Below are positions 16,591 to 52,564 of a DNA stretch of 64,000 nt, one piece after another. This DNA is from Actinomadura logoneensis (GTDB taxonomy: Bacteria; Actinomycetota; Actinomycetes; Streptosporangiales; Streptosporangiaceae). The stretch lies in contig NZ_QURH01000180.1 in the NCBI RefSeq assembly GCF_003428695.1, positions 1 through 64,000 of the forward strand, given 5' to 3'. Under the pieces are notes generated by a model. The model made no database searches. It had not been told where the DNA came from and saw only the letters and a list, made by a program, of their open reading frames with translations. The position numbers were made by a program, and so were the translations under genes. How positions within the stretch are numbered: the stretch's first letter is position 1; each line of letters opens with the position of its first letter.

Positions 16591-17241
16591 TCAGCCCGGT
16601 CCGATCGCGTCTCCGGCGCCATGTTCCCTCAGCAGGTTCGTGAACTGATCCCTGTCGTTGCGCCAGGGGAACGGCTCGTCCGGTACGGGCTTCTCCAGGA
16701 AGGCGCACAGTGGTTCCCACCCGTCGGCGGCCTGGAAGAGGAGCAGCCGATCGGCGGGCAGCGATCGCTGAACGTCGACCATGTGTTCTTCGAAGACCCG
16801 CAGTGCGTGCTCGCGATCGGCGAATCGTCCGTCGAACAAACCGTCCCAGACCACCTCGCGGGACATCTCCCGCATCTCGGTGAGGACGGAGGAGGCCGCG
16901 GACGAGGTGTCCACGGCGGCCCGGTAGATGGTGCCGAGGGCGCTCTCGTACCAGGAATCGGGGTCGCGAACACCAAGGATGACCTTGGCCTCGGGGAAGT
17001 GGCCGGCGAGTTCACGCCAGAAGCGAGCGCCCGGCCAGTCCACGGTCGACCGGTAGCCGCGGTAGACCTCGTCCCAGTCCACGGTTCCACCGTTGGCGGC
17101 GGCACGCCAGAGTCGGATCTCGGCGGGCTTGTGCAGCATGCCGAGCATGTGATGACAGGGGCCGAACCCAAGCCGTTCCAGGGCGGCCTGGAGAGACAGG
17201 GTTCCGGTTCTGCCGAATCCTGCCCCGATGACTTCGAGCAT
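16591..17241 (-). CDS. Sulfotransferase family protein (Cpz8-like role proposed)
   Basis: The 216-aa product begins with the 5'-phosphosulfate-binding loop GAGFGRTGTLSLQAAL (about 6-21) and has the later 3'-phosphate motif region around VILGVRDPDSWYESALGTIY. This is the short P-loop sulfotransferase family that uses PAPS. It directly follows a type III PKS gene and an arylsulfotransferase gene. In caprazamycin biosynthesis the PAPS-dependent Cpz8 sulfates pyrones made by the type III PKS Cpz6, and the ester then donates sulfate to the final acceptor through Cpz4. The same role is inferred here from the three-gene context. ATG 17241 is preceded by AAAAGGAGATCCCC. Confidence 0.88.
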   Translation of the reverse strand: MLEVIGAGFGRTGTLSLQAALERLGFGPCHHMLGMLHKPAEIRLWRAAANGGTVDWDEVYRGYRSTVDWPGARFWRELAGHFPEAKVILGVRDPDSWYESALGTIYRAAVDTSSAASSVLTEMREMSREVVWDGLFDGRFADREHALRVFEEHMVDVQRSLPADRLLLFQAADGWEPLCAFLEKPVPDEPFPWRNDRDQFTNLLREHGAGDAIGPG

Positions 17242-17268
17242 GGGGATCTCCTTTTGATCAGAGGCGGG

Positions 17269-18309
17269 TCAGGCGCCCCTCAGCAGCACGGCCCAGACGG
17301 TGGCGCCCGGACCGAACGCGACGGCGACGCCGTACTGGCCGGGCGCGAGCGGGCGGGTGGCCTGCAGCCGGCCGAGGACCGCCATGACGGCGGGCGCGGC
17401 CGTGTTGCCGTACTCGCGCATCACCGCACGCGCCACGTCGGTCGAGGCGGAGGGCAGGTCGAGCTCCTCGCCCACCCGGTCGATGATGCGGCGCCCGCCG
17501 GGATGCAGAGCCCACCAGCGGACGTCGGTTCGCCGCAGGCCCGCCCGGGCCAGGAGCCGGTCGACCGGTGCGGCCACCGCGGACGCCGTGACATCGGGCA
17601 TGGTGGGGGCGAGCCGGATGCGCAAGCCCGAATCCCCGAGGTGGACCTGGAGGTCGTCAGCGAACTCGGGCACGTACAGCATCTCGGTGTCGAGGATGTC
17701 CAGGCCGGGCGAAGACGTCCTGTCCGGCCGCAGGACGATCGCCGCGGCGCCGTCGCCGAAAAGGGTGAGTACCACCGCCTGCTCCTTGTCGTAGGGCGGG
17801 GCCTGCACGTGGGGTGAGAACAGGTCGACGAGGAGCAGGACGGCCGGGCGGTCGTGCACGATGACCCAGTTGCGGACCGTCGACAGCGCGGGCAGTGCCG
17901 CGTAGCAGCCCATCGGGCCGATGGACTGGAACTCGGTGCCGGGTGCCATGCCGGTCTCGTGGACCAACGTGTCCAGACCGGGCGCGGAGTGGGTCGTGGT
18001 GGTAGCCGTGGCCAACAGGCCGATCTGGTCGGGACGCAGTCCGGCATGGCCGAGGGCGCGGCCTATCGCTTCCCGGCCGAGAGCGCGGGCCTCCGCCAGG
18101 CTCACGGCCATCCGGCGGTCGGTTCCCCAGGAACCGGGATCATCCGTGAACGGATTGACCGCCATTCCCTTGGACTCGATGGCGGAGTTGCCGATGGTGT
18201 CCACGACATGTCGGCCACCGGGACGATCGGCGAGATGGCCCGCGATCTCTGCCATCTTGACCTGCGGAGGGGTGACGAATTCGATGGTGGTGATGCGCGC
18301 GGTGGGCAT
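17269..18309 (-). CDS. Type III polyketide synthase
   Basis: This 346-aa chalcone synthase-fold homodimer subunit has the complete catalytic triad: C135 in SIGPMGCYAALPAL, H269 in WWALHPGGRRIID and N302 in MREYGNTAAPAVM. The C-terminal AFGPGATVWAVLL is the family GFGPG loop. Such enzymes make pyrones or resorcinols from acyl-CoA starters and malonyl-CoA. It lies between a sulfotransferase and an arylsulfate sulfotransferase, as in the caprazamycin cluster, so its product is probably a carrier phenol or enol for sulfate and not the antibiotic scaffold (inference). ATG 18309 follows GAGAGGCCTGTC on the coding strand. Confidence 0.93.
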   Translation of the reverse strand: MPTARITTIEFVTPPQVKMAEIAGHLADRPGGRHVVDTIGNSAIESKGMAVNPFTDDPGSWGTDRRMAVSLAEARALGREAIGRALGHAGLRPDQIGLLATATTTTHSAPGLDTLVHETGMAPGTEFQSIGPMGCYAALPALSTVRNWVIVHDRPAVLLLVDLFSPHVQAPPYDKEQAVVLTLFGDGAAAIVLRPDRTSSPGLDILDTEMLYVPEFADDLQVHLGDSGLRIRLAPTMPDVTASAVAAPVDRLLARAGLRRTDVRWWALHPGGRRIIDRVGEELDLPSASTDVARAVMREYGNTAAPAVMAVLGRLQATRPLAPGQYGVAVAFGPGATVWAVLLRGA

Positions 18310-18379: not shown

Positions 18380-19861
18380 CTACCGGCCGATGCGGGGGGT
18401 GGGGTTCGAGGAGCCCATCGGTTCGCCCTGAGCGTCCAACGCCTCGACTTTGACGAGCGAGGCGTCGGCGGCGGACGGAGGAAGCGGGATTCCGGTGTCC
18501 AGTCCGTTCCACGCCGTGTCGGCGACCGGCTTCATGGAACTCTGGGCCGATCCGGCGTACAGGCGCCAGCGGGCGACGCCGGTCGCGCCGTTCCAGACGG
18601 CGTGCACGGTCTCACCCTGGACGACCGCGGTCGGTGGCGATTCCGGCTTGGCGTGCCAGGGGAACCGGAACATCCGGTACGTGCTCCAGTCCTTGTCGAG
18701 CGCGGCGTCGAACAGCAGCCCGCCGCCCTGGGAGAACTCGGAGATCCGGCCTGCGGGACCCCAGCTGACGGCTGTGTTGCCGTTCGGCAGGCTCTGCGCG
18801 TTGCCCTCCTGGATGCTGGAGAGATGTTCGGGGTGGGTCACCTGCTTGACGAGCCTCGTGGTCTTCCGCTCGGGGTCGACCTTGATCCAGGCGACCCGTG
18901 ACTCGTACCCGTCCCAGAGGAACAGGCAGCCGTTGTCGAACAGCTTGATCGTGTTCTTGCCGGCCCACTGGGCGTCGTGCTGCCAGGAGAAGCGGACGCC
19001 GATTCCGAGCGGGAAGGAGCTGCGGCGCCCGCCCAACCGCCATTCGATCTCCCCGGTCCGCCGGTCGATCTTGAAGATGGTGGAGACGAAACGGCCGGAG
19101 ACCAGAAGATCGCCTTCAGCGTCCTCGTCGACCGAGTTGATGTGGAAGTAGTCGTAGGGGGCGCCGTCGGGCCGCGCGGCGTACGGCAGGTCGGTCTGGG
19201 CGACCGGGACGTGGTCGAGGGCGCTCCATCGCCACAGCGGTCTGCCGGTGGCTATGTCGATCTCTTCGACGACCCCGTCGAAGACGGTGCCGTCCTTCGG
19301 GCCGCCGACCGCGGTGAGGTCGCGCGTCGCGCGCGGGTACAGGGTCAGCAGTGCGGTTCCGCGCGAGGTGAGCCGGAACTCGTGGAGGTCGGCCGGACTG
19401 CTGGAGCCCTTGACGGTGGCGATGACGCGGTAGTTCTCGTCCGCGATGTAGCCGACGCCGCCCCCGGAACCCACGTCGACGAGCCTGCCCTGCCACCAGG
19501 TGATGACCCTGCGGCCCTGGTAGGTCTGGACCCGCAGGTCGGTGGCGATCTCCCCGGCGGGAACCGGGCGGAACCATACCGGCCGCCCCTTCCCGTCAGT
19601 GATCGTCGGGCCGTGGGGGACCGCCAGGTCCGTCGGGTTCTGGGGGGTGGTGAAGAACAGGCCGGGCGCGGTGCCCGGACGACTGCGCAGCACGGTCACC
19701 TTGGGCGCAGGCGGCAGCCCGGAGGCCGGCGAGAAGGCGCCGGCTCGGACGGCGTGGCCGGGGCGGGCGCGGTCGGCTCCCGCGTCATGCGCGAGGACGA
19801 CCGTCAGGATCGTCGCCGCACCGATGGCGGGCAGTGCCCATCGCGCGTTCGAGAACAGCAT
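18380..19861 (-). CDS. Arylsulfate sulfotransferase (ASST) family protein
   Basis: The 493-aa precursor has an N-terminal hydrophobic export signal or anchor (about residues 6-27, ALPAIGAATILTVVLA), then a beta-propeller with repeated Trp/Asp/Gly blades. The ASST-like block DYFHINSVDEDAEGDLLVSG carries a candidate active-site His, and FSWQHDAQW another. ASST enzymes move sulfate from a phenolic sulfate ester to an acceptor without PAPS. In caprazamycin this is Cpz4, which uses sulfated triketide pyrones. Here it sits directly upstream of the type III PKS in the same operon. An export signal suggests that the transfer takes place outside the membrane, perhaps during product release. Confidence 0.9.
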   Translation of the reverse strand: MLFSNARWALPAIGAATILTVVLAHDAGADRARPGHAVRAGAFSPASGLPPAPKVTVLRSRPGTAPGLFFTTPQNPTDLAVPHGPTITDGKGRPVWFRPVPAGEIATDLRVQTYQGRRVITWWQGRLVDVGSGGGVGYIADENYRVIATVKGSSSPADLHEFRLTSRGTALLTLYPRATRDLTAVGGPKDGTVFDGVVEEIDIATGRPLWRWSALDHVPVAQTDLPYAARPDGAPYDYFHINSVDEDAEGDLLVSGRFVSTIFKIDRRTGEIEWRLGGRRSSFPLGIGVRFSWQHDAQWAGKNTIKLFDNGCLFLWDGYESRVAWIKVDPERKTTRLVKQVTHPEHLSSIQEGNAQSLPNGNTAVSWGPAGRISEFSQGGGLLFDAALDKDWSTYRMFRFPWHAKPESPPTAVVQGETVHAVWNGATGVARWRLYAGSAQSSMKPVADTAWNGLDTGIPLPPSAADASLVKVEALDAQGEPMGSSNPTPRIGR

Positions 19862-19874
19862 GAGGAGGGTCTCC

Positions 19875-21227
19875 TTAGGGCTCGGCGGGAGGACGTTCGA
19901 TCGGTTCGATCTCCGCCAGGCGCAGGTCGCCGTCGACCAGCGAGAGCAGGAGCCGTTCAATACCGAACAGAAAGGCGCGGATGGTGGGCGGAGGCAGGTG
20001 GGCGGTGTCGGCGAGAAGGCTCAGCCGGATCACGGACGTGTCCGACAGGTCCTCGTGGACTTCAAGGAAGAACGTGACCGTGGCCCGGTCCCGTTTGCGC
20101 TCCCAGTGGAACGTGGTGGGGAGCGGGGCCTCGGGACCGGGGAGGCCGGGGTCACGGACCGGCGTCCAAAGATCGTTGAACGCGATGGCGAGATCGACGT
20201 CTGATCCCGCGGTCAGAGCGGCGACGTCGTCGGCGTCGAAGCGGCCGTTGCGCTGCACGCGCAGGGAGGCCGCCCAGGTGTTCCGCACGACTTCCCCGAA
20301 GGTGTCGCCACTCAGGTCGATGACCGTCAGCACCTCTTGCGCCAGGTTGCCGACGGCATGGCGGAGCGCAGGGGAGACGCGGTTGCCCGCCATGAGCCTC
20401 ACCGCGCAGCGGTCCACGCCGGTGTGGCGGCCCAGGAGGACGGCCGTTGCGGCCAGCATGACGTGCGTGGGCCCGGCCCGGTAGCGCTCGGCGAGGACGG
20501 TCAGGGCAGTGGGGAGGGCCTGGGAACGAATACCGCCGCGCCAGTAGCGTGGCGTCTGAGGTTTGTGGCGCGCCGCCGGAAACATCCTCGGCGGGGCCGC
20601 AGCCAACTCCCGGCGCCAGTGCTCCAGACCCCTCGCCAGAGCGCGGCGCCCCCGGGGTGAACGCTCTTCCTCGGCGACGTCGACGGGCGCCAGGCCCGGC
20701 GGGTGGTCGAGCCCGCCTTCCAGCAGGTGGACCAGTTCATCGGCGAGAATCCGGCCGCTGATGAAGTCCGCGGCGAGATGCGACATCCACAGTTGGAAGA
20801 ACACCGGCCTGCCGTCGAGCATCCCGATCCGCGCGCCGAAGGGAATCATGGTCGCGGGGTCGTGGGGGGCCTCCGCGCAGAACGGGGACCAGTCGCCCAC
20901 CGTCTCCTCCGGACCGAGCGCCGCCAGGTCGACGAACCCCACGTCGACCTCCCCCTCGGCGACGACCTCCTGAACGAGGGTGCCGTCGTCGGTGAGTCGG
21001 AACAGGGTGCGGAGTGACTCATGGCGTTCGACCAGGGCACCGAGACCCGACAGGATCGTCGCGATGGAGATGCCGTCGGGCAGCGTCCCTCCCGCGGTCA
21101 TGTCGCCGAACGAGGGCTCGTCCGGACGGTGCGTCCGCAGCCAGAAGTCCCACTGTCCCACCGTGCAGGGTGCCGTGACCGCCCGATCACCACGGAACGG
21201 GATACGGCACGGTGAATACCTGGTCAT
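19875..21227 (-). CDS. Free-standing NRPS condensation-domain protein
   Basis: This 450-aa protein has the two-lobed chloramphenicol-acetyltransferase fold of NRPS condensation domains. The active-site HHxxxDG motif reads SHLAADF: the second His (H150) and the Asp (D154) are kept, the first His is Ser149. VGNLAQEVLTVIDL further on resembles the latch/DFGWG-region strands. Stand-alone members form amide or ester bonds between an ACP-bound acyl group and a free acceptor. It is a good candidate for joining the aminoacyl or fatty acyl part to the cyclitol or sugar part of the product. ATG 21227 overlaps the upstream stop by 4 nt. Confidence 0.85.
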   Translation of the reverse strand: MTRYSPCRIPFRGDRAVTAPCTVGQWDFWLRTHRPDEPSFGDMTAGGTLPDGISIATILSGLGALVERHESLRTLFRLTDDGTLVQEVVAEGEVDVGFVDLAALGPEETVGDWSPFCAEAPHDPATMIPFGARIGMLDGRPVFFQLWMSHLAADFISGRILADELVHLLEGGLDHPPGLAPVDVAEEERSPRGRRALARGLEHWRRELAAAPPRMFPAARHKPQTPRYWRGGIRSQALPTALTVLAERYRAGPTHVMLAATAVLLGRHTGVDRCAVRLMAGNRVSPALRHAVGNLAQEVLTVIDLSGDTFGEVVRNTWAASLRVQRNGRFDADDVAALTAGSDVDLAIAFNDLWTPVRDPGLPGPEAPLPTTFHWERKRDRATVTFFLEVHEDLSDTSVIRLSLLADTAHLPPPTIRAFLFGIERLLLSLVDGDLRLAEIEPIERPPAEP

Positions 21228-21820
21228 TGCTTTCCCTCTCGCCGACGGAGCAGCGCCGCCCGGCGCACCGCCCTGTAGTGGTGCTCCATCCACGCGGGCA
21301 ACGCGGCGTGCGGAGAAATGCAGAAGGGGAACAGCTCCCGGCGGTGGGTCGGCCAGCTCGTCCGGGCGCGGTGCACCCGCGTTGAGGCCGGAAGCGTGAA
21401 CGCTGGAGGATCAGTGGCTCCTCCCGCCCAGCGTTCGGCGAGCTCGAGCCGCCGGACGGCCTCCGGGAGAGGGAGGTGTGCGAGCCCGGTCCACGCCACC
21501 GCCCGGCTGGTGAAACGCGCGCCGCGCAGTTCGGGACGGTGTTCCGCACCGAGCACGATCGGCAGGACGGCGCGGGAGGTGAGCTTCTCGCACGCGAGCA
21601 TGGACAGTTCCGGCTGGTCGTCCGTGCCGCGCATCGGGGCCGGCCAGCACCTGTCCGCACCGCTCACGCCGCAGACCGGACAGGTGACGAGGCGCACCCG
21701 GACGGATGGGCCTGCTCGTCCGGTGGGCGTGAACGGAGGGGCCGTGAGTTCACTGCGGGCCTCCCTGACGGCCAACCGCGCCAGCAGCTCACGCAGTTCA
21801 GCGGACATGGGCACCACCAT
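21224..21820 (-). CDS. Unknown protein with CPVC motif in the BGC
   Basis: The product has 198 aa and I do not recognise it. It shows a short Cys cluster, TCPVCGVSGADRCW (three Cys) with one more in LACEK, that could bind zinc. It ends in a basic tail (AVRRAALLRRREGKQ) after PHAALPAWMEHHYRAVRR. The start may be ATG 21820 (MVVPMSAEL) or ATG 21808; both overlap the preceding glycosyltransferase-like gene, by 23 or 11 nt, and no strong ribosome binding site decides. Tight overlap with both neighbours shows that it belongs to the biosynthetic operon, perhaps as a partner of the condensation or glycosyltransferase-like protein. Confidence 0.65.
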   Translation of the reverse strand: MVVPMSAELRELLARLAVREARSELTAPPFTPTGRAGPSVRVRLVTCPVCGVSGADRCWPAPMRGTDDQPELSMLACEKLTSRAVLPIVLGAEHRPELRGARFTSRAVAWTGLAHLPLPEAVRRLELAERWAGGATDPPAFTLPASTRVHRARTSWPTHRRELFPFCISPHAALPAWMEHHYRAVRRAALLRRREGKQ

Positions 21821-22892
21821 GGGCGGCGAGGGCGCACCGTACGGCGGCGACGCCCAGGTCGATCAGCGGGTCCAGGGCGAACGCGGTCCGGTCGGGTTCC
21901 GCTAGTCCGCTCTCGACCCAGGAGGAGACGGCCGGGCGGGTCAGCGGACCACCGCAAGTGGGAGGCGGGGCGAGCGCGGAGGCATGGGCGACGTCGGCGC
22001 CGAGGAGATATCCGGCCGCCCACACCTCGACGGCCACGGGGACCTGATCGCTGGGGACCGCGCTCAACCACGGCTCCGCCCGGTCGAGGACCTCCTCCGG
22101 GTCCGGACCGATCGACGAGCACGCGTCGTACCAGTACCAGCCGTACCGGTGCTCCACCGGCTCGCCGTGCACGATCCGGACAGCGCAGAGGGAGTCGAGG
22201 AGCTCCACGGTGTAGGGACCGGGTTCGAGGCCCTCCCTTCGCCGCCAATGCCCGTCGCGGATCGGCATGCCCGGTGTGTGGACAGTGGCGTGCAGGCGGC
22301 CATGATGACCGACGATCGTCGTTTCGTGGCCGTGGTCGAGCAGATGCGGCACGGTCGCGACGACCGGGATCCCCTGTTCGCGGCAGAAGATGACCACCAT
22401 CTCGTCGTCGTCCTGCGCTTCGTCCGGCATGTCCGCCAGGAAGGCGGCGAGTCGGCGGGCCAGGTCAACGGGAAGGACGAAGCCCTGGGTGGGAGTCCAC
22501 TCCGTTGACGAGAGCGGCGCATAGGCCCGGTCGGCGACGGCTGCGCGGCGGGTGAGGTAGGAGTTGTGCGGGCTGTCCCAGTGGGAGTACATCGCGATGC
22601 CGTGGGCGGGGAGGGCGGTCACCGCCTCGTGCAGGTGCCGCGCGAAGTCCGGGGTGGGAACGGCGTCGTCCTGAAGCACCAGGTGGTGGGTCGCCCCGTC
22701 CTCGATCTCCGCCCAGGCTCGCTTCGCCGTGCGCAGGGGACTCGGGGGGCCGAGCGGATCCGGGTCGGGGACGACCCGGGGCCTGAGCGGCTCGAAGGAC
22801 GCCAGGACCGCCGGCAGCCGCCCGGCGCGGCGTGGATGGTGCATCATCGCGACGCTGAGCCGGACCGAGGCCGTCCGCGAACCGCCTGCCAT
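21798..22892 (-). CDS. Glycosyltransferase-like protein (GT25/GT2-like), first gene of leftward operon
   Basis: The product has 364 aa. The N-terminal third resembles a nucleotide-sugar GT-A fold: VRLSVAMMHHPRRAGRL, then THHLVLQDDAVPTPDFARHL, whose QDDAV is a DxD-like metal site as in GT25-type enzymes. Later a WTPTQGFVLPVDLARRL segment and DDDEMVVIFCREQGIPV fit acceptor and catalytic regions. The C-terminal 120 residues are not recognised. It opens the operon that runs to the sulfotransferase, so it may add a sugar to the product. Assignment rests on these short motifs only. ATG 22892 is the first in-frame start. Confidence 0.55.
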   Translation of the reverse strand: MAGGSRTASVRLSVAMMHHPRRAGRLPAVLASFEPLRPRVVPDPDPLGPPSPLRTAKRAWAEIEDGATHHLVLQDDAVPTPDFARHLHEAVTALPAHGIAMYSHWDSPHNSYLTRRAAVADRAYAPLSSTEWTPTQGFVLPVDLARRLAAFLADMPDEAQDDDEMVVIFCREQGIPVVATVPHLLDHGHETTIVGHHGRLHATVHTPGMPIRDGHWRRREGLEPGPYTVELLDSLCAVRIVHGEPVEHRYGWYWYDACSSIGPDPEEVLDRAEPWLSAVPSDQVPVAVEVWAAGYLLGADVAHASALAPPPTCGGPLTRPAVSSWVESGLAEPDRTAFALDPLIDLGVAAVRCALAAHGGAHVR

Positions 22893-23174
22893 GGCGTCTC
22901 CCGTTCACCCGGTGGCACGAAAGGCCGCTCCGGGCGACCACGCCCTCATATTCGCGGTCATCGCCGCCGGCGGTGAATGTCCGTGTGGACACGCCAATGA
23001 CCGGACGATCAACCGGATCCGACGGGCATGCCCGTCCTGTCGGCCGCGGCCTTGACGGGGGGTCTTCCGGCGGGGGCGAGCGTGCGGAACCCCGGGCATG
23101 CCCATGCGTCCATGGGGAACGTTCGTCCGTTCGCGGCTGGCAGGGGGAGCGTTCCGCGGCCAAGAGTCGTCAGA
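22893..23174. promoter_or_regulatory. Divergent promoter region inside the BGC
   Basis: The 282 bp between the leftward operon and the second sulfotransferase contain a CGTGT-GG-ACACG palindrome at 22982-22993, itself within TGTCC-GTGT-GGACA. This could be the site of one of the three LuxR-type regulators nearby. No gene is seen. Confidence 0.35.
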
Positions 23175-23909
23175 GTGAAAGAGACGGAGAGCGCCGCCCA
23201 GACGATGGTCTTCATCGGAGGGCTGCACAGGAGCGGCACGACACTGTTGGCCTCGGTCATGGCCACCCACCCGGCGATAGGCGGGTTCAGGCACACCGGA
23301 GCCCCCGAGGACGAGGGGCAACATCTCCAAACGGTGCTCCCCATCGACGAGCATCACGGTGGCCCAGGAAGGTTCGCCTTTTCCCCGGATGCTCATCTCA
23401 CAGAGTCATCGCCCTATGGTTCGGCAGCGGTGGCCCGGCGGCTTCGCACCCAGTGGAACCGCTACTGGGATCTGTCAAAACCCCTGCTGCTGGAGAAGTC
23501 GCCGCCGAACCTGACCCGGTTCCGCCTCCTTCAGGAACTCTTTCCGGACTCGAAGTTCATCCTGATGATGCGAGACCCGGTCTCCGTGACGCTCAGCACT
23601 CGCAAGTGGACGCCCGCGCTCTCTCACCGCGACCTCGTGAGGCACTGGCTCCAGGCCCACCGGATCGCCTTCGAGGACTCGCGGTCGCTGCGGCACTTCA
23701 CAGTGGTCCGCTATGAGGACCTGATGGATGCTCCTGAGAAGACCACTGAATCCCTGGCGGATTTCCTCGGCATCGCCGACGAGTTCGACACCTCGCGCAT
23801 CAGGTCCTCCCTGGACGGCCTTTACGCCGCCAGGTGGAGATCCGAGGTGGACCAGGCGACGCTCGACGACCTCCGGGACGCCGTGGCGGAACACGGCTAC
23901 ATGCTGTGA
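23175..23909 (+). CDS. Second sulfotransferase
   Basis: This 244-aa P-loop sulfotransferase is distinct in sequence from the one at 16.6 kb. It has the 5'-PSB loop FIGGLHRSGTTLLASV near the N-terminus and the 3'-PB region FPDSKFILMMRDPVSVTLS, followed by FTVVRYEDLM. The likely donor is PAPS, the acceptor unknown. GTG 23175 gives a normal N-terminus; ATG 23112 and ATG 23205 are alternatives, and no strong ribosome binding site is seen. Having two PAPS-type enzymes plus an ASST suggests either two sulfated positions or separate carrier and direct sulfation. Confidence 0.88.
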   Translation: MKETESAAQTMVFIGGLHRSGTTLLASVMATHPAIGGFRHTGAPEDEGQHLQTVLPIDEHHGGPGRFAFSPDAHLTESSPYGSAAVARRLRTQWNRYWDLSKPLLLEKSPPNLTRFRLLQELFPDSKFILMMRDPVSVTLSTRKWTPALSHRDLVRHWLQAHRIAFEDSRSLRHFTVVRYEDLMDAPEKTTESLADFLGIADEFDTSRIRSSLDGLYAARWRSEVDQATLDDLRDAVAEHGYML

Positions 23910-24680: not shown

Positions 24681-24687
24681 CGACCGC

Positions 24688-25323: not shown

Positions 25324-25639
25324 TCACCCCTCCCCGCCGAGCAGGGGCGCCGATGATGGGAACAGGGCAGGTGAGGTCCTGTACAAGAAGGCGCCGGAAG
25401 AGAACAAACCATCCTCCAGTGATCATCAACACCAATCCGCCCACTCCACGTCGTCGGCCATGACGGAGGGTTTCAAGGCGAGCAATCCTCATGTCAGCGG
25501 CGGGGGAGTGCCGTGCGGATGTGCCCTGAACCTCGTCTGCATGGCTGGCGCTGCCTTGATCAGGATCACACGCAGGATGGATTGGACGCCCCCTGAATGG
25601 CCGATTGCGGACGAAGGCGGATCGAAGTCCGATCGGGGG

Positions 25640-37778: not shown

Positions 37779-39200
37779 GTGGATTTCAACGAGCGGCTGA
37801 AGTCGGCTCTGACCGGCGAAACCACCACGAGTCTGGTCCTCCTCGGCAACTTCGAGGTGGAGGACCGGTGGGCGCGCGGAGAGGTCGGACTGCCGCGCCT
37901 CGCCTTCGGGTCCGACAACGTGATCGTCAACAGGATGGACGAGTTCGCCCTGCTGTTGGCGGCCAAGGGGGACCACGTCCTGCTGAAGGCCGACCCCGAC
38001 GCCGACTTCCTGGCCTACCTGGAAACGCTGGGCTTCGAGATGCCGGCCGTCCTCACGCCTTCCCGCCACGACCCCCGCAAGCTGGTCACCGAGGATGCGC
38101 TCGACGACCCCGGGTTGTGCGCCGAGCTGGGCGAGCTGGGCGCCCGGGGCGCCGTCCTCAGCCCCCACGGGGTGTCGGAACTGGAGGAGCAGCTGGCCGG
38201 AGCGGCCGGCCTCCCGCTCGCCGCGCCCTCCGCCGCCGTCTGCAAGGCCGTCAACAGCAAGATCTACAGTCGGCGACTGGCCGACGCTCTCGGCGTCCGC
38301 CAGGCGCGCGGCTGGACCTGTGACGACGTCGCCGAGATGGAGGAGGCGTTCGGCGCGGCGCGCACCCTGCTGGCCGCCGGGCGGCGCGTCGTCGTCAAGG
38401 ACGCTTTCGGCGTCTCCGGCAAGGGCATCGAACTCGTCGAGGCCGAACCCCGGCTGGACCGGTTGCTTCGCATGATCAGCAGAAACGTGCGGCGGGCGGG
38501 CGGCGACCGGCTCGGTGTCGTCGTGGAGGAGTGGGTCGACAAGCGCGCCGACCTGAACTACCAGTTCACCGTGGGCCGTGGCGGCAGCGTGCACTTCGAC
38601 TTCGTCAAGGAGGCATTGACAGAGTCAGGGGTGCACAAGGGCCACCGTATCCCCGCGCGGCTCGCCGAGCACCAGGTCGCCGAGCTGAAGGACGTCTCCC
38701 ACCGCCTCGGCGAGAAGCTGGCCGCGGACGGCTACTACGGAGTGGTGGGCGTCGACGCGATGGTCGATCCGGACGGCGGTCTCTATCCGGTGGTCGAGAT
38801 CAACGCCCGGAACAACATGTCGACCTACCAGGCCGCCATCCAGGAGGCGTTCCTGGAGGGGTGGGGAGGGAGGACGGCACTGGCCCGGCAGTACCCGCTG
38901 CGGCTCACCCGCCCGCTGCCGTTCGGCCGGTTGCGCGACCTGCTGACCGACCTGCTGTTCACCCACGCCTCCGGAACGGGACTGCTGGTCAACAATCACG
39001 CGACGGTCAACGCGGCGGCGCCGGAGGACGGCGCGGCAGCGGTCGGCGCGTCCTCCACCGCCGGGCCGGGCGAGTCGTTCGCCGGCCGCCTGTACGGCGT
39101 GGTCATCGCGTCCTCGGACGCGCAGCTGACCGCACTGGACGGCGAGATCACCCGCCGGCTGGCGGCTCTCCGAGAAGGGACCTCGTCCGATGCCGCGTGA
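37779..39200 (+). CDS. ATP-grasp ligase, BtrJ-like role proposed
   Basis: The 473-aa ATP-grasp protein has RVVVKDAFGVSGKGIELVEA (nucleotide-binding Lys and glycine loop), VVEEWVDKRADLNYQF and the metal-binding VVEINARNNMSTY. Such ligases activate a carboxylate as acyl phosphate. The order ATP-grasp, PLP decarboxylase, ACP copies BtrJ, BtrK and BtrI of butirosin biosynthesis, in which L-glutamate is loaded on an ACP and decarboxylated. The same role is inferred; the sequence alone does not fix the amino acid. GTG 37779 has GAGGAGAG upstream. The C-terminal about 120 residues are less typical and Ala-rich. Confidence 0.82.
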   Translation: MDFNERLKSALTGETTTSLVLLGNFEVEDRWARGEVGLPRLAFGSDNVIVNRMDEFALLLAAKGDHVLLKADPDADFLAYLETLGFEMPAVLTPSRHDPRKLVTEDALDDPGLCAELGELGARGAVLSPHGVSELEEQLAGAAGLPLAAPSAAVCKAVNSKIYSRRLADALGVRQARGWTCDDVAEMEEAFGAARTLLAAGRRVVVKDAFGVSGKGIELVEAEPRLDRLLRMISRNVRRAGGDRLGVVVEEWVDKRADLNYQFTVGRGGSVHFDFVKEALTESGVHKGHRIPARLAEHQVAELKDVSHRLGEKLAADGYYGVVGVDAMVDPDGGLYPVVEINARNNMSTYQAAIQEAFLEGWGGRTALARQYPLRLTRPLPFGRLRDLLTDLLFTHASGTGLLVNNHATVNAAAPEDGAAAVGASSTAGPGESFAGRLYGVVIASSDAQLTALDGEITRRLAALREGTSSDAA

Positions 39201-40500
39201 GTACCAGGTGCAGGGCGTACCGGTGTCCGACCTCGCCCGCAGATACGGCACACCCTTCTTCGTCTACGACGGGCAGGTCCTGCACGACCGTTTCCACGGT
39301 CTGCGCCGCCGGCTGCACTCGGCGGTCGAGATCTTCTACTCGCTGAAGGCCAACCCCAACGTCTCGGTCTGCGCCCTCCTGCGGTCGTTCGGCGCCCGCG
39401 CGGAGATCTCCTCGCTGGTGGAGCTGCGGACGGCGCGTCGTGCCGGCGTCGCGCCGGAGGACATCATCTTCCTCGGGCCGGGAAAGAGCCGCCAGGAACT
39501 CGCGGCCTGCCTGGACGAGGGCGTCTTCGCGATCGTCTGTGAGTCCTTCCCCGAACTGGCGCTGGTGGACGAGCTGGCCCGCGACCGCGGCGTGCGGGCC
39601 CCGGTCGCGCTGCGGATCAACCCGAGCTTCGCGGTCAAACGGTCCGGGCTGGCGATGGGAGGGAAGCCCCGGCAGTTCGGCATCGACGAAGAGCAGGTGT
39701 TCGCCGAGGCCGGCCTCGCCGGGCGGTTCCCCGGCGTGGAGGTCATCGGCGTGCACGTCTACATGGGCACCCGCATCCTCGAAGAGGACGTGGTGGTGGA
39801 GAACACCACCCGCATTCTGGAACTGGCCGAAAGGGTCGCCGCCCACCTGGCCGTGCCCCTGCGGATGGTCGACGTCGGAGGCGGGCTGGGCGTCGACTAC
39901 TTCTCCGGCGAGACCGGCCTGGATCCTGCCGTGCTGGCCGGGAAGCTCGACCCCGTGATCGCCGGATTCACCGCCCGGCACCCCGGCACACGACTGATCA
40001 TGGAGGTGGGGCGGTACCTCACGGCCGAGTCCGGCACCTACGTGGTCGCCGTCCGCTATGTGAAGACCTCCATGGGCGAGCGGTTCGCGGTCGCCGACGG
40101 CGGCACCAACCACCACATGGCCGCCGTGGGCATCGGCTCCTTCGTGAAGCGCAACTTCCCGATGGCGGTGCTCAACCGGCTCGACGAGCCCGCCACCGAG
40201 GACTGGAACATAACCGGACCGCTGTGCACGCCCAACGACACCCTCGGTAAGAAAGTGCCGCTCCCGCCAGTGCGCGCCGGTGACCTGATCGGCGTACTGC
40301 GGTCCGGGGCGTACGGCCCCACCGCCTCACCCGTCCTCTTCCTCAGCCACGGCTATCCCGCCGAGGTGCTCGTCCACGAGGGCAGGCCGCATCTGATCCG
40401 CGAACGAGACCTCCCCGAAGACCTCATGGCCCGGCAGCGCCTCTACGACCCGGCCGAGCCGGACCCCGCGGCGCGGAACGCGACCGACATCGTCCCGTGA
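39190..40500 (+). CDS. PLP-dependent decarboxylase (DAP/ornithine decarboxylase fold), BtrK-like role proposed
   Basis: The 436-aa fold-type III enzyme has the PLP lysine K53 in FYSLKANPN, a DVGGGLGVDY loop, IMEVGRYLTAESGTYV, the interface Cys in GPLCTPNDTLGKKV and GAYGPTASPVLF near the end. LysA members decarboxylate D-stereocentres; relatives in BGCs (BtrK, VinO) decarboxylate ACP-bound amino acids. Flanked by an ATP-grasp ligase (11-nt overlap) and an ACP, decarboxylation of an aminoacyl-ACP is the likely job, giving an omega-amino acyl group such as 4-aminobutyryl-ACP (inference). Confidence 0.9.
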   Translation: MPREYQVQGVPVSDLARRYGTPFFVYDGQVLHDRFHGLRRRLHSAVEIFYSLKANPNVSVCALLRSFGARAEISSLVELRTARRAGVAPEDIIFLGPGKSRQELAACLDEGVFAIVCESFPELALVDELARDRGVRAPVALRINPSFAVKRSGLAMGGKPRQFGIDEEQVFAEAGLAGRFPGVEVIGVHVYMGTRILEEDVVVENTTRILELAERVAAHLAVPLRMVDVGGGLGVDYFSGETGLDPAVLAGKLDPVIAGFTARHPGTRLIMEVGRYLTAESGTYVVAVRYVKTSMGERFAVADGGTNHHMAAVGIGSFVKRNFPMAVLNRLDEPATEDWNITGPLCTPNDTLGKKVPLPPVRAGDLIGVLRSGAYGPTASPVLFLSHGYPAEVLVHEGRPHLIRERDLPEDLMARQRLYDPAEPDPAARNATDIVP

Positions 40501-40529
40501 AGCCCCTGCACACGAAAGGTGACCTTCTG

Positions 40530-40835
40530 ATGGAGAACACGACCCCGGGTAACGCCGCCGACCTGCACGGCAGGGTGGTCGGCACGATCGTGGCCGCGCT
40601 CGCCGAGGCGACCCGACTCGACCCCCGCACGATCGGTGAGGACAGCACTCTCTTCGACGAGCTGGGGCTCGACTCCACCACGGTGCTCGGGCTGCTCATG
40701 ACGATCGAGGAGGAGCTCGGGATCGAGTTCGACACCGACTCCCTCGAACAGCACCACTTCGAGTCGGTGGGCACCCTCGCCGCGTTCGTGGAGACGCAGG
40801 TGGTCGAGCAGGTGCCCGATCTGGCCGAAGCGTAG
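40530..40835 (+). CDS. Acyl carrier protein 2
   Basis: The 101-aa ACP has Ser49 in DELGLDSTTVLGLL, with surrounding acidic helices II and III (IEEELGIEFDTDSLEQ). ATG 40530 has AAAGGTGA 9 nt upstream; a GTG at 40497 overlapping the decarboxylase stop is also in frame. Its place right after the ATP-grasp and decarboxylase genes makes it the probable carrier for the amino acid-derived unit, while ACP 1 probably carries the fatty acyl unit. Confidence 0.93.
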   Translation: MENTTPGNAADLHGRVVGTIVAALAEATRLDPRTIGEDSTLFDELGLDSTTVLGLLMTIEEELGIEFDTDSLEQHHFESVGTLAAFVETQVVEQVPDLAEA

Positions 40836-40841: not shown

Positions 40842-41723
40842 ATGTACCTCGCCACGGCCCCTGGCCCGGGGGCCCTCGATCCGGCCGCTCGGACGCCCCT
40901 CCGCCTGTCACGTCTCCTGAGCCTGACGTTCGGGGCGGGGCAGCCGTTCCACCCCGACCCGATGGAACCGAGTCTGGAACGGATGCAGACGGACCTGCTC
41001 CGTCCCTATCGGAGGGAACTGCGCGCGGAGGTGCTCGCCCAGGGGCGACGCAACACCTTCACCGAGATGAGCCAGGCACTGCTGGCCGCGCTCGGGCCGC
41101 TCAAGGACCCGCTCGACATGATCCTGGTGGTCAACAGCGTGCCGGACGCCGACCCGCGCCGGTCGCCGTCCTGTCACCTCACCGACGTCGCGCCCGGCGA
41201 CGCACTGGCCTTCAACCTCTCCGACCAGGGGGCCGCCGGACCCTTCACAGCGCTGCGGCTGGTCACCGAGTACGCCAAGGTCAGCGGCTTCCGTCATGCC
41301 CTGGTCGTCGTCCTGGACCAGCGGACCTTTCCCTACGACGTGACCGGGGCCGACGGCGTCCCCGAGCACGACTGCGCGGTCGGCCTGCTTCTCGGCCCCA
41401 CCGGGCCCGCCGGAGAGCCGGCCGTCCACCAGCGGGCGGACGTCGCCCCTGAGGAGGTCCCCGCCCACCTCAACGCCGAGGGCGAGACCTCTGCCGTACT
41501 GGTGGCAGGGGAGGGCATCGAGCCGGACTGGATCGCGCCGGGACGGTTCACCGAAGTGATCTGGGCGCCCGAGGGGCGTCCCTGTACCGGTCCATGGTCC
41601 GCGCTCGCCGCCTCGCTGCCGCGCCTCGCCGCGCGCGGCCCCGACCACCTCGTCGTCGCGGACTACGACCGCGCCCAGCGGTACCTGTGTCTGAGCAGCA
41701 TGGACTTGGAGGAGGCCCTGTGA
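40842..41723 (+). CDS. KAS III-like protein without catalytic Cys
   Basis: The 293-aa product follows the KAS III N-terminal pattern: PLDMILVVNSVPDADP, then LAFNLSDQGAAGPFTALRLV and HALVVVLDQ. In KAS III the middle segment holds the nucleophile (AACSG); here it is SDQGAAG with Gln129 and Gly130, so no Cys is available. C-terminal His/Asn catalytic motifs are not evident. It may be a structural partner for the active KAS III at 36837, in the manner of chain-length-factor subunits, or a binding protein. It starts 6 nt after ACP 2. Assignment rests on motif similarity only. Confidence 0.6.
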   Translation: MYLATAPGPGALDPAARTPLRLSRLLSLTFGAGQPFHPDPMEPSLERMQTDLLRPYRRELRAEVLAQGRRNTFTEMSQALLAALGPLKDPLDMILVVNSVPDADPRRSPSCHLTDVAPGDALAFNLSDQGAAGPFTALRLVTEYAKVSGFRHALVVVLDQRTFPYDVTGADGVPEHDCAVGLLLGPTGPAGEPAVHQRADVAPEEVPAHLNAEGETSAVLVAGEGIEPDWIAPGRFTEVIWAPEGRPCTGPWSALAASLPRLAARGPDHLVVADYDRAQRYLCLSSMDLEEAL

Positions 41724-42427
41724 CGAGTCTGGAGACGCCCGACACCGAAACGGTCACAGGCACATGGAGGAGACTGCGGGGGCTCGCCCGTGGAGCGGGG
41801 GTGGTTCCCGCTCTGACCGCGCTGCGGACGGCCGTCTGCCCGGAAGCCCTGCCGTGCGGACCGGCGGGGCACGCGCTGGTCCCGGAGGACATCGCCGAGA
41901 CCTTCGACCACGGCTGGGCCGACGGCAGCGGGGCTCCCCGCGCCGCGGACCGGGAGGACAGGCTGACTGAAATCGCCGTATCCGGCGGTGTCCTGGTCGC
42001 GCTCCGGAGGAGGGACGAGGCGCCGGTGGACGTTCACCGGGCACCGGTACGGGCGTGGACGCTGGGCCTGGCCTGGGTGCGCCTCGGCCTCTCGGAACAG
42101 ATGCTGGACACCTGCATGACCTACCTCAGGGGCCGCGTCACCGGTGCCGGCACACTGCTCAACCAGCAGATGGTCAAGGGATCGCTCGCGGAGGTGGCCA
42201 TCGAGCATCTCGAGATCGAGACCATGATGGACGGCGCCCTCCCCGGTGACCTCGACATCGCGGCGACGGTCCACCTGCACGCCCAGATCACCCGTGCCGA
42301 CCGGATGCTCCTCCGGCTGCTCGGCGCCTACGGGTTCCTGGCCGATGGTCCGGGCCAGGTCGCCTGGGTGTCGGAGTTGCTCGCGGATGTCTATGTCGGT
42401 CCACCGGCGGAAGGCGGCCCACGATGA
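41720..42427 (+). CDS. Protein resembling the C-terminal half of an acyl-CoA dehydrogenase
   Basis: The 235-aa product is mostly alpha-helical. MVKGSLAEVAIEHLEIETMM and ADRMLLRLLGAYGFLADG resemble the C-terminal helical bundle of ACADs, but no FAD-binding TEP/GSD motif, N-terminal domain or EGT base is present. GTG 41720 overlaps the previous stop by 4 nt and the stop overlaps the next gene by 4 nt. The adjacent full-length dehydrogenase suggests a two-subunit enzyme. The function is not proven. Confidence 0.6.
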   Translation: MTSLETPDTETVTGTWRRLRGLARGAGVVPALTALRTAVCPEALPCGPAGHALVPEDIAETFDHGWADGSGAPRAADREDRLTEIAVSGGVLVALRRRDEAPVDVHRAPVRAWTLGLAWVRLGLSEQMLDTCMTYLRGRVTGAGTLLNQQMVKGSLAEVAIEHLEIETMMDGALPGDLDIAATVHLHAQITRADRMLLRLLGAYGFLADGPGQVAWVSELLADVYVGPPAEGGPR

Positions 42428-43581
42428 TCGAGCTGGACGACCGGACGAGGGCGATCCAGCGACGCGCCCGCGAGTGGGCCCGGGAGCTCAAGCCACTGGC
42501 CTTGGAGCTGGACGGGGACCCGGACGCGATCTACCGCCACCTCGACGTGGCGATCGTGTCGTACCTGACCCGGATGCCGGTCCCCCCGCGACACAACCCC
42601 GACCCGGTGGTCATCGACGGGCACAGGTTCTATGGCACCGGAACGCTGGAACGAGTCGTCTTCGCCGAGGAGGTGGCGGTCGGTGACGCCGGGATGCTGC
42701 TGGCCGCGCCGGGCCCGGTGATGTCGGGTGTCCTGGTCGACTCACTGGGCGACGAACGGCAGAAGGAGTGGTTCTACAGCCGTATCCTCCAGCGCCCCAC
42801 CTGGACGTTCTTCGCGTTGACCGAGCCCGCGCGCGGCTCTGACGCCGGGGCGATGGAGACCACCCTCGCGCCGGACGGTGACGGTTATGTGTTGAACGGC
42901 CGTAAGAGGTACATCGGCAACGCCGCCCGCGCCGACATCGGTGTCGTCTTCGCCCGGACCCGGCCCGGTCCGCTCGGGGTCACCGCGGTCCTCGCCGAAA
43001 CGTCCGACCCCGGGTTCACCGCCGAGCCCCTCGAAACCATCGGACTCCGTGGTCTGCGCATCACGAACGTGACGCTGGACAGAGTGCGGATCTCTGCGGG
43101 AAACGTCCTCGGCCAGCATCTGCGGCCCACGCAGCGGGGCATGTGGAGTGCCGTCCAAGGGCTGAACCGGCTCCGCCCCGGGGTCGCCGCGTTCGGGCTG
43201 GGCATCGCCCGTTCGGCGTATGAGTACGTCCGGGAGAACCGGCCCGGCCTCCCGCTTCGGGACCGGGAACGGCTGGACGACCTCGGCCGCCGCATCACCG
43301 GCGTCCGCCAGCTGATCTGGCGGGCCGCCCTCGCGGTCGACGCCGCCCGTCCGAGCGCGGGGTACGAGGCCTCCGCCGCGAAGGCGAAGGCGTCCCGACT
43401 CGCCGAGGACGCGACCATGGAGGCGCTCGGCTTCTTCGGAGCCGGCGCCCGGCTGGAGCATCCGCTTCTGGACAAGCTCGCCAGGGACGCCCGCGCCGTC
43501 GAGTTCATGGAAGGCACGGGCAACATCCAGAAGCTCAACCTCTTCACCGGCCTGCTCCAGGGCCGTCTGCACCGTGGCTGA
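42424..43581 (+). CDS. Acyl-CoA dehydrogenase family protein, catalytic type
   Basis: The 385-aa product is of standard ACAD length. It has FFALTEPARGSDAGAMETTL (FAD and substrate region), LNGRKRYIGNAARADIGVVF, GLRGLRITNVTLDRVRI and the C-terminal FMEGTGNIQKLN with catalytic Glu363. It is thus a complete flavin dehydrogenase and the probable active partner of the preceding helical protein. The substrate is probably the ACP-bound acyl or aminoacyl chain. ATG 42424 overlaps the previous stop by 4 nt (ATGA). Confidence 0.9.
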   Translation: MIELDDRTRAIQRRAREWARELKPLALELDGDPDAIYRHLDVAIVSYLTRMPVPPRHNPDPVVIDGHRFYGTGTLERVVFAEEVAVGDAGMLLAAPGPVMSGVLVDSLGDERQKEWFYSRILQRPTWTFFALTEPARGSDAGAMETTLAPDGDGYVLNGRKRYIGNAARADIGVVFARTRPGPLGVTAVLAETSDPGFTAEPLETIGLRGLRITNVTLDRVRISAGNVLGQHLRPTQRGMWSAVQGLNRLRPGVAAFGLGIARSAYEYVRENRPGLPLRDRERLDDLGRRITGVRQLIWRAALAVDAARPSAGYEASAAKAKASRLAEDATMEALGFFGAGARLEHPLLDKLARDARAVEFMEGTGNIQKLNLFTGLLQGRLHRG

Positions 43582-44944
43582 CGCGGGTCCCGCCCTGGTG
43601 GGCGGTGAGGAGGCGGGCCGTGAGGAACCGGGCCGCGGGAGAAGGCGCCGCGAGATCCGCAGGCTCGCCGGACCCATGATGCTGGCCGGAACGGCCGGGG
43701 TGCTGGTACCGACTGTGGTTTTGGCCCTGGTCTCGCGGTTGGGTGCCGACGAACTGACGATCCGAGCCCTCTACACTCCGCTGGCCTTCCTCTTCCTCGC
43801 GCTCCAGATGGCCTTCGACCTCAGCAACCAGGCCGGCGCCGCGTTCCATTTCGGGCGGGGGACCGATCGGTACGTGCCTTCCCACGCGGTCAGCCTGCTG
43901 GGGATCTGGGTCGGCCTCGCGGTGGCCATCTGCGTTCTGGTCGCGGCGGCGGCCCCCGTCCTGACCGGCGTCCTGCATGTGGAGCCGGCGGTGGGGCCGC
44001 GATTCGAGGCGTTCCTGCGCTGGATGGCGATCGCCCACCTCGCCCTGCCCGGGTCGGTTCTGGCCGCGTCCTGCCTGCGCGGAACGGGAAGGCCCCGGGC
44101 GGCGGCGTCGATCACTGTGACCAACGCCGTGGTCGAGATCGGCGCCGTCGCAGCCCTCGGCCCCGGCAGTGGTCTCGGGATCATGGCGGTGCCGGTGGCG
44201 ACGGCCCTCGCCGGGCTGTCCGGGACCGTTCTCGGCCTGGTGCACCTGCGCCGGGCGGGCCTGTGGGGACGGCCGCTCGGGTGGCGGCCGGACGCCATCG
44301 GGCGCCTGGTGTCGGTGGGACTGCCGGTCGGCGCCTCCTACCTGGTCCTCTTCGCGATGAACCTGGCCCTGTTGTGGGTACTCGGCCCGTTCGGCCGAGA
44401 TGTCCGCGATGGATTCGCGGTCGGTGCCGTCGTGCAGAGCCTGGTCGTCATCCCGGCGATCGCGCTCGGATCGGCTACGGCGATCGTCATGAACCAGCAG
44501 CGCGGCGCCGGGAAGCTGCCGTGGCTGGAGGACACGCTGAGGGCCGGGCTCCAGGTGGCCTTCGTGATGTACGCGGTCCTCGCCCCGGCCGTCTGGCTCG
44601 GGAGGGAGGTCCTCGGCGTGCTGCTGGCAGGGGACACCCGGGTGGCTGAGGAAGGCGTCCGCTTCCTCGGCGTCGTCGCCCCCACCTACCTGGTCTTCGG
44701 CATGGTCCTGGTCGCCGTCACGGCCATCGAGCAGATCGGAGGAGGCGCCCTGGTGCTCGGCATGAACGCCGCCTACACGGTCGGGATCGTCGGACTGGGC
44801 GGCCTGCTGGCCCGGTGGCTCGACGCTCCCGGCGCCCTGTACACCACGATCGCGCTCTTCAATCTCGCGGGAATCGGGGGAGTGGCACTGACCCTCCGGT
44901 TCGTCCGCGGTCTGAGCAGGGGGCGCCCGTGCCCGGCCGAGTGA
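43574..44944 (+). CDS. MATE-family efflux transporter
   Basis: The 456-aa protein has about 12 hydrophobic helices with an internal duplication typical of MATE transporters. Helix 1 follows a basic lead (REIRRLAGPMMLAGTAG). VVQSLVVIPAIALGSATAIV begins the second-half pattern with a conserved small-residue helix and MNQQRGAGK loop. It is the probable exporter of the BGC product, driven by H+ or Na+. GTG 43574 overlaps the dehydrogenase stop by 8 nt. Confidence 0.87.
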   Translation: MADAGPALVGGEEAGREEPGRGRRRREIRRLAGPMMLAGTAGVLVPTVVLALVSRLGADELTIRALYTPLAFLFLALQMAFDLSNQAGAAFHFGRGTDRYVPSHAVSLLGIWVGLAVAICVLVAAAAPVLTGVLHVEPAVGPRFEAFLRWMAIAHLALPGSVLAASCLRGTGRPRAAASITVTNAVVEIGAVAALGPGSGLGIMAVPVATALAGLSGTVLGLVHLRRAGLWGRPLGWRPDAIGRLVSVGLPVGASYLVLFAMNLALLWVLGPFGRDVRDGFAVGAVVQSLVVIPAIALGSATAIVMNQQRGAGKLPWLEDTLRAGLQVAFVMYAVLAPAVWLGREVLGVLLAGDTRVAEEGVRFLGVVAPTYLVFGMVLVAVTAIEQIGGGALVLGMNAAYTVGIVGLGGLLARWLDAPGALYTTIALFNLAGIGGVALTLRFVRGLSRGRPCPAE

Positions 44945-44959
44945 CGAGGAGGGCCGCCG

Positions 44960-45682
44960 GTGGTTGAAGTCCTGCCGGCGAGCGGCGCTGTGGAGGTCTG
45001 GAGAATCCCCCTGGACCTGCCGTCAGAGGCCGTGGTGCGACTACGGGCGACCCTGGACCGGGAGGAGACGGAAAGGCTCCATCGCAGCCGCTGCGCCCGT
45101 GAACGGCGTCGGCTCATCGTCGCCCGCGGCACGCTACGGCAGATTCTCGCGGCCTACCTTGGGGAGGCCCCGGGAGAGCTGCGCTGGACGCGGGGTCCCT
45201 ACGGGAAGCCCGGGATCGCCCGGGTGGACACCGAGCTCCGGTTCAACCTCTCGCACGCGGGGGAGGTGGCTCTGGTCGCGGTGACCTCCCGTGACGAAGT
45301 CGGGGTCGACGTGGACCTACCGCGGCCCCGAGTGCCGGTTCGGCCGTTCTCCGCCCGCTACTTCCCCCCTGCTGAGGCGGCTTTGGTCGACCGAGCGGAC
45401 CCGTCCCACGCCCGGACCGCCTTCCTGCGGCTCTGGACCCGCAAGGAGGCGGTGGTCAAGGCGGCGGGAGCACGCGTGACGCAGGGGCTGCGCCTTCCGG
45501 TGGCCACGGGCGGCCCCGCGGGGGCGTCCGGGGCCGTAGTGGTGCGTGATCCCACCGGTGTGATCGCGGGGACATGGACGGTGCAGGATCTGCCGATGCC
45601 GGGCGAGTACGTGGCCGCGGTGGCCGTCGAGGGACGACGGGCGCCACGGGTCGTCATCAGGCGCGTCGACCGCTGGTGGTGA
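44960..45682 (+). CDS. Sfp-type 4'-phosphopantetheinyl transferase
   Basis: The 240-aa product has the two Sfp signatures: VGVDVDLPRP (metal-binding Asp pair) and FLRLWTRKEAVVKAAG (Trp, Lys-Glu, Lys). FNLSHAGEVALVAV is the preceding substrate strand. It transfers phosphopantetheine from CoA to the serine of carrier proteins, here ACP 1 and ACP 2. It is the last gene of the operon; GTG 44960 has GAGGAGG upstream. The BGC probably ends here, because the next 300 bp carry tandem repeats and then an unrelated methyltransferase. Confidence 0.95.
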   Translation: MVEVLPASGAVEVWRIPLDLPSEAVVRLRATLDREETERLHRSRCARERRRLIVARGTLRQILAAYLGEAPGELRWTRGPYGKPGIARVDTELRFNLSHAGEVALVAVTSRDEVGVDVDLPRPRVPVRPFSARYFPPAEAALVDRADPSHARTAFLRLWTRKEAVVKAAGARVTQGLRLPVATGGPAGASGAVVVRDPTGVIAGTWTVQDLPMPGEYVAAVAVEGRRAPRVVIRRVDRWW

Positions 45683-52560: not shown

Positions 52561-52564
52561 TTGG

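Follow-up and report, generated by a model that had tools for sequence, protein, structure and literature searches.

In the biosynthesis of butirosin, BtrK decarboxylates glutamyl-ACP (ACP, acyl carrier protein) and BtrJ is the ATP-grasp member of the same enzyme set, while the genes for the sulfation of caprazamycin are cpz4, cpz6 and cpz8. Caprazamycin sulfation takes two steps, with a sulfated pyrone serving as donor for a sulfotransferase that is independent of 3′-phosphoadenosine-5′-phosphosulfate (PAPS) (PMC4257720). In bolagladin and AFC-BC11 biosynthesis a BtrK-like decarboxylase, an acyltransferase similar to ketoacyl-ACP synthase III (KAS III) and an acyl-CoA-dehydrogenase-type enzyme (ACAD) turn carrier-bound aspartate into N-acyl-dehydro-β-alanine, as supported by gene deletions and in vitro experiments (PMC7756342, PMC12186527). 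Here we describe a gene cluster from Actinomadura logoneensis that encodes proteins of all these kinds. The window, meaning the whole stretch of 64,000 nucleotides that was analysed (contig NZ_QURH01000180.1, positions 1 to 64,000), is part of a 68-kb contig of the 8.1-Mb genome, and for its positions 16591–45682 an earlier note had proposed an uncharacterised type of cluster for a sulfated, amine-bearing acyl compound, perhaps joined to an amino sugar or cyclitol.

These 29 kb are a genuine, self-contained gene cluster (Table 1), and on balance it is probably a single one, with a predicted product in which an amine derived from inositol (an aminocyclitol) forms a sulfated lipid amide. Calling of open reading frames (ORFs), codon-position GC content and Pfam/NCBIfam scans recovered each gene class of the earlier note in its place: the fatty acyl-AMP ligase (FAAL), four ACAD-type proteins, two ACPs, KAS III proteins with and without the active-site Cys, the ATP-grasp ligase, the pyridoxal phosphate (PLP) dependent decarboxylase, the condensation protein, the phosphatase, aminotransferase and dehydrogenase genes, three LuxR regulators, the MATE exporter and the phosphopantetheinyl transferase (PPTase), with fold comparison and inspection of the Cys column as additional checks. 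Three sulfation-type proteins were found as well, in line with the proposed sulfation, and the type III polyketide synthase (PKS) at 17269–18309 can be added, as it had not been singled out before. In Actinomadura xylanilytica 26 of the 27 cluster genes are matched with 64–91% identity in a single 29-kb block (11.0–40.2 kb in the stretch used for comparison). The genes that flank the cluster on either side have no match in that stretch, so that the conserved block has the same limits as 16591–45682. Its left block (ST4 to U364) is relocated and inverted to a place beyond PPTase, and the only gene without a match of its own is the second LuxR gene. As A. xylanilytica keeps both halves in one bounded block despite this rearrangement, and without the flanking genes, we regard them as one cluster. 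A partial version is present in Actinomadura harenae.

The acyl part of the cluster has clear relatives among the described systems. With the afc cluster for AFC-BC11 from the Burkholderia cepacia complex it shares a FAAL, a carrier protein, a PLP decarboxylase of the kind that uses Asp on a carrier, a pair of KAS III-like proteins (AfcL carrying Cys/His/Asp), an ACAD-type dehydrogenase and the assembly of an acyl peptide without nonribosomal peptide synthetase (NRPS), whereas afc further employs a citrate synthase and an adenylating enzyme of the VinN type and has a lysine at the end of its product (PMC12186527). The bol cluster for bolagladin from Burkholderia gladioli resembles what is proposed for the window in its BtrK-like route from Asp to β-alanyl-ACP, the proposed N-acylation by KAS III and the desaturation by an ACAD, and differs as it feeds an NRPS, uses the adenylating enzyme BolO and starts from a citrate-primed fatty acid (PMC7756342); NRPS-linked actinobacterial loci are closer to bol than the window is. 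A locus of Burkholderia cenocepacia encodes the same kinds of proteins including both KAS III types; its U293-type protein matches with E 3e-15, and its DAPDC is 40% identical. Unlike afc, the window combines an ATP-grasp enzyme with a cyclitol-type gene set and sulfation genes and has no second adenylating enzyme: apart from FAAL, the contig yielded no PF00501 protein, leaving no candidate there for a VinN-type adenylation of the Asp β-carboxyl group, in whose place the ATP-grasp ligase stands. No citrate-synthase-like priming enzyme was found among the scanned ORFs of the window. The butirosin enzymes BtrI/BtrJ/BtrK likewise bring an ATP-grasp enzyme (likened to that of the window at the family level), a BtrK-like decarboxylase and an ACP together, but without any KAS III or ACAD part. 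Since characterised analogues exist in bol and afc, the core of the cluster is not a new kind of chemistry, and the earlier claim of a set without characterised counterpart stands, as far as the literature searched goes, for the whole set, not for its core or for the sulfation relay, which has its precedent by family in caprazamycin. In the literature we found no described cluster with ATP-grasp, KAS III and ACAD proteins and no sulfated aminocyclitol of Actinomadura. Of interest are the proposed start by an ATP-grasp enzyme, a widespread cassette without a name and its modular combination with sulfation and cyclitol genes.

Among the PDB entries DAPDC is most similar to BtrK (311 bits), followed at a distance by diaminopimelate decarboxylase (179 bits), and like BtrK it probably decarboxylates a carrier-bound amino acid. 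KAS3, aligned with CerJ and FabH, retains the catalytic Cys; a His replaces the Asn of FabH and an Asp follows five residues later, all three being invariant in 13 homologues and aligning with CerJ. This His–Asp spacing is that reported for ChlB3, and the triad is of the same kind as in AfcL. A Cys-His-Asp set has been reported for the acyltransferases ChlB3 and CerJ (PMC9573744), and with the same set AfcL forms a C–N bond (PMC12186527). The confident model of its partner U293 (pLDDT 86) fits best to FabH and ChlB3, and the alignment has no Cys in the active-site column of the window protein. As U293 is thus a KAS III fold without active-site Cys, a PqsBC-like heteromer of KAS3 and U293 is plausible. 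At the catalytic motif ACAD1 has Asp and ACAD2 no acidic residue in all 11 homologues of each, while ACAD4 has the usual Glu; its homologues occur at 64 loci, with an EGT-type motif among the 30 matches listed. This pattern suggests heteromeric dehydrogenases, with ACAD1 and ACAD2 as likely partners and ACAD3/ACAD4 as a further putative pair.

In the left half, T3PKS shows the motifs GCYA, HPGG and GNTA and has the α-pyrone synthases pks18 and Pks11 as best PDB matches; we propose that it makes a phenolic or pyrone sulfate carrier. Compared by family, an intact type III PKS, the adjoining PAPS sulfotransferase ST4 and the PAPS-independent arylsulfate sulfotransferase ASST match the caprazamycin relay (PMC4257720), although the remaining genes are not those expected for a liponucleoside, and the product is likely to be sulfated. 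ASST of the window and some of its homologues have an N-terminal hydrophobic segment, judged by the choice of start codon and hydropathy only, which might, as a speculation, hint at sulfation outside the cytoplasm. The ASST homologues are of two kinds, with this segment (contrasted in genomes G007, G013, G018, G023, G050 and G063) or without it (G005, G009, G014, G019, G024 and G027), and both kinds, or as many as three copies, are found in several genomes.

Eight other Actinomadura genomes each have most of Cdom, ASST, T3PKS, ST4, IMP, U364, U198, LuxR3, ACPa and MATE. In these sister clusters (L111–L120, L127–L130), which carry one to three ASST genes, a type I PKS, an aromatic amino acid lyase, DegT aminotransferases and inositol-phosphate synthase replace the FAAL/GRASP cassette. 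As the acyl part is swapped, the sulfation-cyclitol set looks like a chassis accepting different acyl modules, and the sister clusters apparently belong to an undescribed family of sulfated cyclitol polyketides; we know of no product for any of them. A gene next to ASST in the Actinomadura geliboluensis version (L030:12829–14823, minus strand) reads as a NodU/CmcH-type carbamoyltransferase, and the product of this strain may be carbamoylated too.

The genes IMP, AT3 and MocA bring an inositol phosphatase, an aminotransferase and an inositol dehydrogenase-type protein together, as judged by family; the best NCBIfam match of MocA is inositol 2-dehydrogenase (TIGR04380, 62 bits, below the cut-off of the model). 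Next to FAAL clusters of Microbispora, Streptosporangium, Actinoplanes and Nonomuraea, IMP is again adjacent to AT3 (AT3 copies 71–75% identical) and both are accompanied by MocA, and in two of these four genera an inositol-1-phosphate synthase gene adjoins PPTase (L046, L081). As this synthase stands beside homologous clusters, the synthesis of an inositol-derived amine is the best reading of the three genes, and from the earlier alternative of amino sugar or cyclitol the cyclitol is favoured over an ordinary amino sugar. A conserved protein encoded after MocA in two genera (L046:1121–2173, L097:1055–2122) looks like the N-terminal portion of a transposase of the IS110 type.

The two halves of the cluster face opposite strands around the regulators, as might be expected if a sulfation/condensation cluster (16.6–25.3 kb) adjoined a FAAL lipid cluster (26.6–45.7 kb) and both made separate products. 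Such a pair of clusters is unlikely, because A. xylanilytica holds both halves within its sharply bounded block, because FAAL clusters of Streptosporangium, Microbispora and Nonomuraea include the left-half genes Cdom, U364 and U198, and because of the linkage in A. geliboluensis, where one contig carries FAAL to MATE and a second one leads from the remaining part of MATE at its end to ASST, about 2.7 kb past MATE. The unity assumed in the earlier note is supported by these comparisons. For the acyl chemistry, the pairing of KAS III proteins with and without Cys and the presence of PqsC among the weak matches would also suit true C–C condensing enzymes of the PqsBC type, with KAS3/U293 joining γ-aminobutyryl-ACP (GABA-ACP) and a malonyl unit to a pyrroline-type alkaloid instead of forming an N-acyl amide. 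We give this little credence, as the acyltransferase-type His...Asp in place of the FabH Asn is found in 13 of 13 homologues and the analogous KAS III enzyme of afc makes C–N bonds.

The amine genes allow two further explanations. IMP might be the phosphatase for 3′-phosphoadenosine-5′-phosphate (PAP), which is released by sulfotransferases, and the window would then have no cyclitol phosphatase; CysQ indeed belongs to the same superfamily, but with 84 bits its model is outscored by those for HisN (133 bits) and inositol phosphatase (117 bits), and IMP adjoins AT3 in the four genera named above, in whose genomes ASST had no match (a genus search with nearly the same query being the positive control), making this role improbable. 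An azasugar, following the logic of GabT1/YktC1/GutB1, would call for the same three enzyme functions and for a class III aminotransferase and a PF00459 phosphatase as present here. The published definition of that azasugar set asks for a dehydrogenase of PF00107/PF08240/PF16912 and for the aminotransferase consensus SGNxFR... (PMC8382821), whereas the dehydrogenase of the window belongs to PF01408 and the consensus is absent from the aminotransferase when its sequence is read. With inositol-phosphate synthase in relatives as a further argument we rejected the azasugar as very improbable. Several observations nevertheless weigh against a single cluster for an aminocyclitol lipid amide. The sulfation genes occur without FAAL and GRASP in the eight Actinomadura genomes; inositol-1-phosphate synthase is absent from the window but present beside L046 and L081 and in the sister clusters, which use DegT-family aminotransferases and not class III as AT3; and Cdom, whose activity is putative, has SHxxAD in place of HHxxxDG. 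Moreover, the ligase family to which GRASP was assigned (PF18604 and PDB matches) also produces free peptides (BesA, PGM1), for which reason the loading of an ACP is deduced from the neighbouring genes, and its amino acid cannot be read from the sequence, with Asp and Glu both being candidates.

The analysis established the families of the genes, the residues at active sites, the linkage and the recurrence of modules, and from these we infer all substrates, the order of steps and the product structure. In the biosynthesis of the proposed aminocyclitol lipid amide, FAAL would load a fatty acid onto ACPa, its presumed partner, for desaturation by ACAD1/ACAD2, and GRASP would attach a dicarboxylic amino acid (Asp or Glu) via its side-chain carboxyl group to ACPb, both ACPs presumably being activated by PPTase. 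Decarboxylation by DAPDC would then give β-alanyl- or GABA-ACPb, whose amine could be acylated by the KAS3/U293 pair or by FAAL itself, as AfcA does, before ACAD3/ACAD4 would desaturate the N-acyl-aminoacyl thioester. Cdom or KAS3 could transfer the chain to the aminocyclitol made by IMP, MocA and AT3, and U364, for which a model of moderate confidence has glycosyltransferases as best Foldseek matches, might add a sugar or cyclitol. ST4 would sulfate the phenol made by T3PKS and ASST would move the sulfate from there to the product, with direct sulfation by ST3 also being possible, and MATE would export the product. The earlier proposal for the product was reasonable in outline, but its description as amine-bearing is doubtful, since decarboxylation gives a unit whose amine would more probably be acylated than free.

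Table 1: Genes of the cluster with their positions in the window and proposed assignments.
Gene	Position	Strand	Assignment and remarks
ST4	16591-17241	-	PAPS-type sulfotransferase, PF17784, 214 bits; 78% identical copy adjoins T3PKS in A. xylanilytica
T3PKS	17269-18309	-	type III PKS, PF02797/PF00195; Cys-His-Asn motifs intact
ASST	18380-19861	-	PAPS-independent arylsulfate sulfotransferase, PF14269, 182 bits; N-terminal hydrophobic segment
Cdom	19875-21293	-	free-standing condensation-type protein, putative acyltransferase, PF00668, 68 bits; motif SHxxAD
U198	21224-21820	-	no Pfam/NCBIfam match; conserved partner of U364, homologues in clusters of relatives
U364	21798-22892	-	glycosyltransferase-like (GT-A type); QDD motif invariant in alignment
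ST3	23028-23909	+	second PAPS-type sulfotransferase, PF13469, 98 bits
LuxR1	23958-24761	-	LuxR-type regulator, PF00196
LuxR2	24688-25323	-	LuxR-type regulator, PF00196
LuxR3	25803-26552	+	LuxR-type regulator, PF00196, 54 bits; found again in homologous clusters
IMP	26623-27456	+	inositol-monophosphatase-family phosphatase, PF00459, 183 bits
AT3	27573-29117	+	class III aminotransferase, PF00202, 286 bits
MocA	29114-30106	+	Gfo/Idh/MocA dehydrogenase, PF01408, 80 bits
U264	30205-30999	-	function not assigned; conserved in A. xylanilytica and A. geliboluensis
FAAL	31207-33009	+	fatty acyl-AMP ligase; best models 379/372 bits
ACAD1	33006-34823	+	ACAD-type; Asp (FDG) at usual catalytic Glu motif
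ACAD2	34820-36496	+	ACAD-type; no acidic residue at catalytic motif
ACPa	36493-36834	+	acyl carrier protein (GLDSV); PF00550 at 36598-36795, 56.6 bits
KAS3	36837-37769	+	KAS III-like acyltransferase; Cys117-His269-Asp274 (alignment numbering)
GRASP	37779-39200	+	pre-ATP-grasp ligase, PF18604, 62 bits; BesA and PGM1 among best PDB matches
DAPDC	39190-40500	+	BtrK-like PLP aminoacyl-ACP decarboxylase (PDB search)
ACPb	40497-40835	+	acyl carrier protein (GLDST), PF00550; presumed aminoacyl carrier
U293	40842-41723	+	Cys-less KAS III-fold partner; profile and fold matches to FabH/ChlB3
ACAD3	41594-42427	+	short ACAD-like subunit, weak PF00441
ACAD4	42424-43581	+	ACAD-type; canonical MEGT catalytic motif
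MATE	43574-44944	+	MATE exporter, PF01554
PPTase	44960-45682	+	phosphopantetheinyl transferase, PF01648

The ORF at 25265–25726 is unmatched in A. xylanilytica, has a low GC content at third positions and is probably not a gene. Two tRNA arrays 40 kb apart (tRNA-Val/Gly, 11850–12025; tRNA-Val/Cys/Gly, 52486–52734) bracket the cluster and may have arisen by duplication of one array at the borders of an inserted region; relatives showed no synteny around the flanking genes, and these tRNAs do not adjoin the left-flank gene there.

An alignment of the ATP-grasp protein was scanned against one genome per species, leading to 80 actinobacterial loci, a number limited to relatives sharing two short peptide patterns, with counts of neighbours depending on 10-kb flanks and contig ends. 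KAS3 and DAPDC are each present at 75 of them, U293 at 65 and ACAD3 and ACAD4 each at 64, and the full core KAS3-GRASP-DAPDC-ACP-U293-ACAD3-ACAD4 is found at 56 of the 80 loci from many genera (collinear in 50). The cassette is thus not unique to Actinomadura but a widespread, unnamed family; one annotated record has 'hypothetical protein' as the name for each of U293, ACAD3 and the ATP-grasp protein. FAAL is encoded near the cassette at 21 loci and an NRPS at 29, but both together at none of the 80. Some NRPS-linked cassettes (L039:15406–17481, L103:16379–17425 and similar ones) adjoin genes reading like both 2,3-diaminopropionate enzymes, and lipopeptides bearing an unusual N-acyl unit are the likely products of these loci. 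At the Amycolatopsis loci L051, L055, L059, L070 and L079 the ATP-grasp gene lies near an NRPS and the rest of the cassette is absent. Tentatively, the cassette might be a system that starts (dehydro)amino acids on a carrier with an ATP-grasp enzyme instead of by adenylation, works with a heteromeric CerJ-type KAS III and heteromeric ACAD proteins and is interchangeable between NRPS and NRPS-free FAAL lines; in Actinomadura it would be joined to an aminocyclitol and to an aryl sulfate that diffuses as a carrier, so that a sulfotransferase anchored in the membrane could act on the product outside the cytoplasm.

As the full core is present at 56 of the 80 loci and several of the proteins carry hypothetical annotations, solving a single product would account for a whole family of unassigned clusters. 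The cassette is also a testable case of KAS III-type C–N bond formation begun by ATP-grasp loading, and a natural experiment in how lipids and peptides are assembled from modules is offered by the mutual exclusion of FAAL and NRPS, together with acyl modules that change while the sulfation-cyclitol chassis stays fixed.

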